35,884 bases of DNA from Vulcanimicrobiota bacterium (GTDB lineage Bacteria; Vulcanimicrobiota; Vulcanimicrobiia; Vulcanimicrobiales; Vulcanimicrobiaceae). Shown one piece after another: positions 12,391 through 13,790 of this stretch (position 1 is the stretch's first letter; each line of letters begins with the position of its first letter). The stretch spans positions 1 through 35,884 of the forward strand of contig PMHP01000028.1 in NCBI GenBank assembly GCA_003158195.1, written 5' to 3'. The translations under genes were made by a program, and so were the position numbers. The notes under the pieces were generated by a model. That model did not search any database. It was not told the origin of the DNA and was given only the letters and a program-made list of their open reading frames with translations.

Positions 12391-12780
12391 TTATTTGAGG
12401 GCGATGGCGCCCGGGACGAGCAGGGCGTGCTCCAGGCGCACGCTGCCGTTGCGCAGAGCGATCGTGAGGTGCAACGAGCGTGCCAGTCCGAGCTTGGCAA
12501 GCGGGGCGTCGTCGATCGTGCGCGCGGTCTCGGTCCCAGGCAAAAGCTCGAGGACGACGTCGCGCACGTAGGGCGTCTGCCCCTTGGCCGTGAGCGTTTC
12601 GGTGACCGCCGCCTTGGCCGCGCCCTTCGCCGGCTGGCCCGCGCAGAGCTCGACGCTCAGATTCGTCCCATCGATCGCGAATGTGTCCGTGGAGCACGAC
12701 GGCGCCTGGACCGGCGCTGCGGCGGCCGCAAGAAGGGCGATCGAGAACGCGAGCGCAGCGCTCGCCGAGGGCGGCAGCAT
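12391..12780 (-). CDS. Small exported protein of unknown function
   Basis: The best start is the ATG at 12780, giving 129 residues with a clear signal peptide (MLPPSASAALAFSIALLAAAA, probable cleavage near PVQA). The mature part is about 100 residues, with two cysteines that could pair (APSCSTDTF and VELCAGQPAKG). The rest is beta-rich (LHLTIALRNGSVRLEHALL). I recognise no domain. A longer frame extends upstream to 12942, but that part runs through the stem-loop block and is Arg/Ala-rich, so I exclude it. A TATACT hexamer lies about 10 bases before the ATG on the minus strand, so the transcript may be almost leaderless. Confidence 0.65.
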   Translation of the reverse strand: MLPPSASAALAFSIALLAAAAAPVQAPSCSTDTFAIDGTNLSVELCAGQPAKGAAKAAVTETLTAKGQTPYVRDVVLELLPGTETARTIDDAPLAKLGLARSLHLTIALRNGSVRLEHALLVPGAIALK

Positions 12781-12830
12781 AGTGTACAGTATAACGCGCT
12801 TGCCCGCTATCTCGTTACCCGCCGCCGTCA

Positions 12831-12958
12831 TTAAAAAGCGCCTCACGTTGCGAGGCGCTGGCGCTCCGGAACGCTTTTGCGACTTCGCCGGAAAAACGCT
12901 CCTGCGCGCCCCCGCGCGACGTTGCGCGCGGGTCCCCGTCACAGGAGCGGCCCTTTTT
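12831..12958. ncRNA. Block of three consecutive stem-loops, possible small RNA gene
   Basis: This block lies in the 203-base gap between two divergent genes, where no terminator is needed. Stem 1: AGCGCCTC at 12837-12844 pairs with 12852-12859 (8 bp). Stem 2: TCCGG at 12865-12869 pairs with 12888-12892, with an inner CGC/GCG. Stem 3: CGCTCCTG at 12897-12904 pairs with 12942-12949, enclosing CCCGCGCG (12911-12918) paired with 12925-12932. Read on the minus strand, stem 1 is followed by TTTTT (12836-12832); read on the plus strand, stem 3 is followed by CCCTTTTT. Both would work as intrinsic terminators. Stems 1 and 3 share the loop sequence ACGTTGCG. A structured small RNA is the simplest reading; its strand is undecided. 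Confidence 0.45.
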
Positions 12959-12983: not shown

Positions 12984-13790
12984 ATGCGCATCGATCTCAT
13001 CGCCTTGGATCTCGACGGTACCTTACTCGACCCGCAGGAGCGCATCTCCGAGCGCAACCGTGCCGCCATCCGCAGATCGCTCGAAGCCGGCGTGCGGGTC
13101 GTGCTCGTCACCGGCCGCGGCACCGACTTACCCATTCGGGTATCGCGCGAGCTCAACTTAAATCTGCCCGTGATATGCTGCCATGGCGCGCTGACCAAAG
13201 ATTTCGGTGCGAATAAGACGCTCGTCCATCTTCCGGTGCCGCTGCCCTACGCGAAACCGATGATCGAGTACGCCGAGGCGAATGGGCTCTCGATTGCGAT
13301 CTATTCGGAAGAATTCTTTTGGCGGCTCGAAGGAACGCATCTTTTCATGGACGACATGTCGGGCCCGGCTTGGCGCGAAGCCAAGACGTTCGCCGACGTC
13401 CTCCACGAAGCGCCGACCTTCATCCGTTTTCTCGGTGAAGAGTCGGTGCGCGCGATGGAACGCGAGTTCGGCGACTGGCCGCTCGCGTTCCGGCACGAAA
13501 CGTGGGGAGACTTCCACGAATGCGCGGTCCTCAATCGCGACGCGAGCAAAAAGAATGCGCTCAAACAGTTATGCGCCGACTTCCAGATACTCCCCGAGCG
13601 GGTCTTGGCCATCGGTGACTCGCGCAACGACGTCTCGATGCTGCGCTGGGCCGGGGTCGGTGTTGCGATGGGTAACGCGTTGCCCGAGGTCAAGGAGAAC
13701 GTGCGCTTCGTAACCGCGAGCAATCAGGAGGACGGCGTAGCGCTTGCGATCGAGCGTTTCGTCGGGTTCGCGCAGAAAAAACCGGCGTGA
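12984..13790 (+). CDS. Cof-type HAD-IIB hydrolase
   Basis: A 268-residue HAD phosphatase of the Cof/IIB type. Motif I is ALDLDGTLLD near 7-16, motif II VTGRG near 39-43, the motif III lysine lies in the SKKNALKQL stretch near 193, and motif IV is IGDSRNDVSMLRWAG near 209-223. The C2-type cap lies between motifs II and III. These enzymes dephosphorylate sugar phosphates, FMN or similar small molecules; the substrate here is unknown. The ATG at 12984 is the natural start. Its stop overlaps the GTG of the next gene (GTGA), beginning a chain of tightly coupled genes. Confidence 0.88.
   Translation: MRIDLIALDLDGTLLDPQERISERNRAAIRRSLEAGVRVVLVTGRGTDLPIRVSRELNLNLPVICCHGALTKDFGANKTLVHLPVPLPYAKPMIEYAEANGLSIAIYSEEFFWRLEGTHLFMDDMSGPAWREAKTFADVLHEAPTFIRFLGEESVRAMEREFGDWPLAFRHETWGDFHECAVLNRDASKKNALKQLCADFQILPERVLAIGDSRNDVSMLRWAGVGVAMGNALPEVKENVRFVTASNQEDGVALAIERFVGFAQKKPA

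Follow-up and report, generated by a model that had tools for sequence, protein, structure and literature searches.

ERIC/IRU and Correia/NEMIS repeats are shorter than 200 bp, lie mostly between genes and fold as RNA (PMC2229807). The ERIC repeat of Yersinia is co-transcribed and changes mRNA stability in an orientation-dependent manner, and is a documented precedent for a repeat that alters the mRNA that carries it (PMC2229807). REP/BIME sequences, with their RAYT transposases, are short, dispersed palindromic units that also occur in tandem clusters (PMC3733652). The bcr1-bcr18 repeats of Bacillus cereus are intergenic, make up portions of UTRs and operon spacers, and include some with conserved RNA structure (PMC3446304). 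Pneumococcal BOX, RUP and SPRITE repeats are structured as well, BOX being modular and transcribable in the 5' and 3' extensions of operons (PMC3049150).

Here we analyzed a locus in the window (the whole 35,884-nt stretch of contig PMHP01000028.1) that bears a likeness to these repeats in several of the features just named. It carries a copy of what is apparently a real and undescribed family of dispersed, non-coding elements that fold as RNA; our literature search on repeats in the phylum Eremiobacterota found no papers.

A three-hairpin element between divergent genes

The element measures ~101 nt and is composed of a 5' GGGG, hairpin H1, a long hairpin with an internal loop (H2), hairpin H3 and TTTAAA. 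In the window it reads along the minus strand from 12937 to 12837, as GGGGA, H1, H2 and H3, and then TTTTAATG. The features of the locus are as follows:

12984 to 13790, plus strand: divergent flanking gene for a HAD-family hydrolase (Hydrolase_3, Pfam PF08282, E=9.9e-52)
12933 to 12937, minus strand: conserved 5' GGGGN, its GGGG invariant in an 8-copy alignment and found in nearly all of 76 copies
12911 to 12932, minus strand: H1, CCCGCGC-GCAACGTC-GCGCGGG, triloop AAC closed by GC/GT
12860 to 12910, minus strand: H2, capped by GC-GAA-GT at its apex and interrupted by a 3x3 internal loop (GCA/GGA); compensatory changes throughout
12837 to 12859, minus strand: H3, AGCGCCTC-GCAACGT-GAGGCGCT, 10 pairs, 8 of them with compensatory change
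12841 to 12844, minus strand: GAGG, a possible Shine-Dalgarno sequence in the 3' strand of H3 if ATG 12831 is the true start
12831 to 12836, minus strand: TTTTAA tail, from position frequencies and comparison with the empty site of a relative (G003)
12391 to 12831, minus strand: downstream gene for a small predicted secreted protein, starting at ATG 12831 or ATG 12780

A preliminary description of the window had pointed to three stem-loops between divergent genes, with an identical loop in the two outer stems. All of this is present: the stem-loops occupy 12837-12937, ACGTTGCG lies in the plus-strand loops of both outer stems, and the flanking genes point away from each other. Its suggestion of a ~130-nt structured RNA holds in part: compensatory changes and strand asymmetry strongly support a conserved structure of about that size, whose proper strand is the minus strand. 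The minus-strand fold reaches -70.7 kcal/mol (z -3.3, with no shuffle as low), while the plus strand gives a z of -2.9 against shuffles, and the family model scores the window copy at 101.7 bits on the minus strand versus 34.9 on the plus strand. It had also been stated that no known RNA could be recognized, and Rfam searches of the window and the loci, at gathering and at permissive thresholds, gave no match, the best weak score being 18.7 bits where the cut-off is 80.

The T-runs described at the two ends require a different reading. T5 is indeed found beyond both, but the plus-strand T5 lies outside the element, since it is present in a relative that lacks it (G015). It comes after GGCCC, several bases past the stem, and the proposed plus-strand terminator obtained no terminator score. 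The third plus-strand stem itself is partly built from flanking CAGGAGCGG, which is largely kept in G003 without the element.

In G003, both flanking genes are present and the element is absent, the site reading CCGCTCCTTTTCAAAGCGCGG where the window has CCGCTCCTGTGAC, the element and TTTTAATGACGG. This empty site suggests that TTTMAAA is probably the target sequence; the TTTTAA tail of the window copy would probably be target as well, G003 carrying TTTCAAAG at that place. The small secreted-protein gene has no Pfam match and is conserved in G003, where the ortholog aligns from ATG 12780. If ATG 12831 is the start, H3 of the window copy ends 5 nt before it. The ~220 bases that were read next to the HAD gene of G015 showed no sign of this gene or of the element.

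Covariation, distribution and spread of the family

Four copies, including that of the window, were found in the same genome by DNA similarity, and six with a covariance model. The first such model, built from eight copies, recovered 75 copies in one Eremiobacterota family, in 33 of its 99 genomes, and a refined model 83 copies in the same 33 genomes; copies are related to one another, and these counts are not independent. A covariance model scan of 50 genomes from elsewhere in the phylum, outside this family, found no element. A carrier typically holds 1-7 copies, and numerous related genomes are free of it. Copies resemble most closely those of their own lineage and form lineage-specific subfamilies. 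Several lie at contig ends, as is usual for repeats, so the counts are probably low. Remnants in which H1 is joined directly to the TTTAA tail were seen in L194, around 1500-1545, and near the middle of L206 (G071:C110); as the models miss such remnants, the true copy number is higher than counted.

An exact pattern scan of public genome contigs gave 67 stretches, six of which score clearly with the model. Three of these are on Eremiobacterota contigs (L077, L088, L091), and three come from the MAG YF1.bin71, at positions that match those of copies in the family genome G105. The other 61 stretches had no clear model score and, like 8 viral contigs, were set aside as chance matches, and plasmid and phage records contained no match to the element.

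Scanning relatives with a covariance model, a check put forward in the preliminary description, revealed compensatory changes in the stems. Both sides have changed in 31 of the 38 base pairs among 76 aligned copies; pair cells are standard in 90.3% of cases versus 73.4% after shuffling, and the covariation score is 0.448 versus 0.04-0.08 for slid partners, values that lean towards the model since the alignment was fitted to it. An independent 8-copy alignment, which is of good quality, agrees, with double-sided changes in 17 of the 38 predicted pairs. In H1, 94% of the cells of its 7 modelled pairs are paired, with compensatory change in six pairs. H2 is missing from some copies (L126, L152, L153). 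It is much longer in others (L163:335-479, L167, L170), which are still palindromic, and thus seems free to vary in length.

All three hairpins end mostly in GC-NNN-GT, as GC-GNA-GT or GC-ANC-GT. Bases 1 and 3 of the triloop are coupled: G..A (93, expected 59) and A..C (44, expected 20) are in excess, and G..C (8, expected 37) and A..A (3, expected 33) are rarer than expected. We infer that GNA and ANC loops would both permit a non-Watson-Crick closing pair. A mini-hairpin with a similar GC-GAA-GC cap, GATGCGAAGCATC, lies just 5' of the copies L187 and L188, in ribosomal protein operons. A set of 61 copies with less than 85% mutual likeness has 108 G-U pairs versus 30 A-C mismatches, which identifies the minus strand as the one under constraint and points to its acting as a single strand, either RNA or ssDNA; strand-biased mutation could contribute to this asymmetry.

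Empty orthologous sites, tandem copies and the occurrence of both orientations in one spacer indicate that the element has spread by insertion. Where the tuf spacer of genus g37 is empty, a promoter-like TTGACA and a leader, both conserved, are followed directly by the start codon; in four relatives the element lies between the tuf promoter and leader and the tuf start codon, and in G075 the spacer holds a remnant without H2. Among all copies, a promoter was seen upstream of those at tuf only. The g37 fusA-tuf spacers (L215-L224) have a conserved TTGAC-type promoter, and the tuf leader (CGCCCTC..GAGGGCGTTTACCGCGT..ACGCCTGG..CCGTGTAT) is conserved, apparently forms hairpins, and has no Rfam match. 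In the spacer of an HNH gene, G065 and G069 carry the element antisense to that gene, G070 carries it in the sense direction, and six other genomes lack it. Near-identical copies stand in tandem in G030, G035, G018 and G105.

What moves the element is a puzzle, as it has no inverted ends, target duplication or recognized transposase. Its ends are asymmetric (5' GGGGnCCC versus a 3' hairpin and TTTAAA), without terminal inverted repeats. The search for a target-site duplication gave a longest flank repeat of 3.34 versus 3.26 in shuffled pairings, with 94 of 300 shuffles as high; a 9-nt flank repeat in L156 is an isolated case. Neither the ends nor the flanks show a conserved GTAG or CGTC tag across 76 copies. 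Two candidate movers were not associated with the element and were rejected; both are absent from the genome of the window (G000): the RAYT/IS200 Y1 transposase (PF01797; 4/99 genomes, 2/33 carriers) and a reverse transcriptase (PF00078; 12/99 genomes, 4/33 carriers).

Position relative to genes and a proposed role in mRNA

The preliminary description had named, as an outcome that would speak against it, a repeat dispersed at random sites. The element is dispersed, but its sites are far from random. Copies are nearly always intergenic, and none clearly interrupts a gene. Of the 45 copies between same-strand genes, 39 are in the sense direction, as for a leader element, and six are antisense (p=5e-7); the sense copies often lie 5-25 nt before the next start codon, as at tuf, rpoD, rpsE, rpmC, atpD, gyrA, ftsH and adk. 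Divergent genes flank 17 copies, each oriented like the gene downstream of it, and convergent genes flank four. A same-strand gene follows 60 of 76 copies, all of these placements resting on gene calls from a simple hexamer gene finder, in which single calls may err. Many copies occupy the entire spacer, with the upstream stop 0-20 nt away and the next start 5-25 nt away.

Downstream genes confirmed with NCBIfam or Pfam are rpsE, rpoD, atpD, rpmC, ftsH, gyrA, infC, obgE, adk, smc, lpd, rpsA, rnj, tuf, sepF and pckA. In this list, taken by itself, core genes such as those for EF-Tu, RpoD and ribosomal protein S5 are often represented. The 3' strand of H3 contains GGAG, GAGG or GGGG in 10 of the 14 copies with a start 5-9 nt away, versus 2 of the 34 with a more distant start, these two classes having been drawn up after the sequences were viewed. 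The element recurs before rpoD in four genera, before lpd in two and before tuf in one. The rpoD copies (L189, L175, L146, L167) have low mutual similarity (0.30-0.70) and may reflect either repeated insertion or retention from an old event.

We favor, as more probable than not, a dispersed RNA-folding family that acts in mRNA as a 5'-leader or intercistronic structure. Copies would enter 5' UTRs and operon spacers at A/T-rich sites that resemble TTTAAA, and those in the sense direction would be transcribed within mRNA, as we infer from their position and from the tuf promoter. There they would fold as three capped hairpins standing between the ribosome-binding site and the cistron upstream of it. 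The folded copy could modulate the translation start of the downstream gene, mRNA processing, or both, these effects being predicted ones; where the spacer is very short, the 3' strand of H3 would probably supply the Shine-Dalgarno sequence itself. The sense bias, the proximity to start codons and the tuf promoter all fit such a role, whereas the six antisense copies and the four between convergent genes count against a leader. In the window, such an effect would fall on the minus-strand gene for the small secreted protein, and transcription is least certain for this copy, since the flanking genes are divergent.

A smaller but appreciable share of probability goes to a purely parasitic mobile repeat, inserting in A/T-rich spacers and surviving at tolerated sites, with hairpins kept for ssDNA mobility rather than for mRNA. 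Presence and absence at orthologous sites, tandem arrays and lineage-specific subfamilies are all in line with it, and the single-strand asymmetry fits an ssDNA hairpin too; the orientation and core-gene bias could also stem from target choice or tolerance instead of function. However, the 39:6 sense bias and an H3 resembling a Shine-Dalgarno sequence mainly near start codons suggest fitting to translation, and the Y1 transposase is absent in 31 of 33 carriers. It appears unlikely that the element is a spreading structured RNA module that installs a portable translation-start or regulatory leader before housekeeping genes, with a single dedicated protein, or an enzyme of its mobility, recognizing the GNA/ANC-capped hairpins. 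A regulon in which a dedicated protein binds the shared caps and coordinates core genes would agree with the cap motif common to all three hairpins, with its coupled closing bases and with the recurrence before rpoD, lpd and tuf, but is very improbable given gene sets that vary by genome, 1-7 copies in most carriers and none in many related genomes. A bidirectional intrinsic terminator or insulator between divergent genes, as first proposed, is scarcely credible: the minus-strand H3 followed by TTTTTAA does score as a terminator, but the family tail is TTTAAA, without a conserved T-run, the plus-strand T5 is external, and most copies lie just 5' of a start codon, in many cases that of a core gene, with a same-strand gene downstream.

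The family provides a natural series in which one RNA structure has come to stand before genes that are tightly controlled in most organisms (tuf, rpoD, rpsE, gyrA), and close relatives without the insert serve as ready controls. Any effects of dispersed repeats on translation or mRNA processing of core genes are thus directly testable. The family also adds an RNA to a phylum for which the literature searched describes none.

Comparison with described repeats

The closest kinds are bacterial MITE-like repeats, and the element is without two of their defining features. Like them, it is short, non-coding, dispersed, and present or absent at orthologous sites. ERIC and Correia repeats have TA ends and terminal inverted repeats and duplicate their target, features that are not seen here, and form one long hairpin instead of three separate ones. 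BOX and RUP likewise pair terminal inverted repeats, and the element has no such ends. It differs from REP/BIME in having no GTAG/CGTC end tag, in a Y1_Tnp present in 2 of 33 carriers, and in its location mostly 5' of genes. The bcr1-bcr18 repeats belong to an unrelated lineage, and the likeness to them is one of general description.
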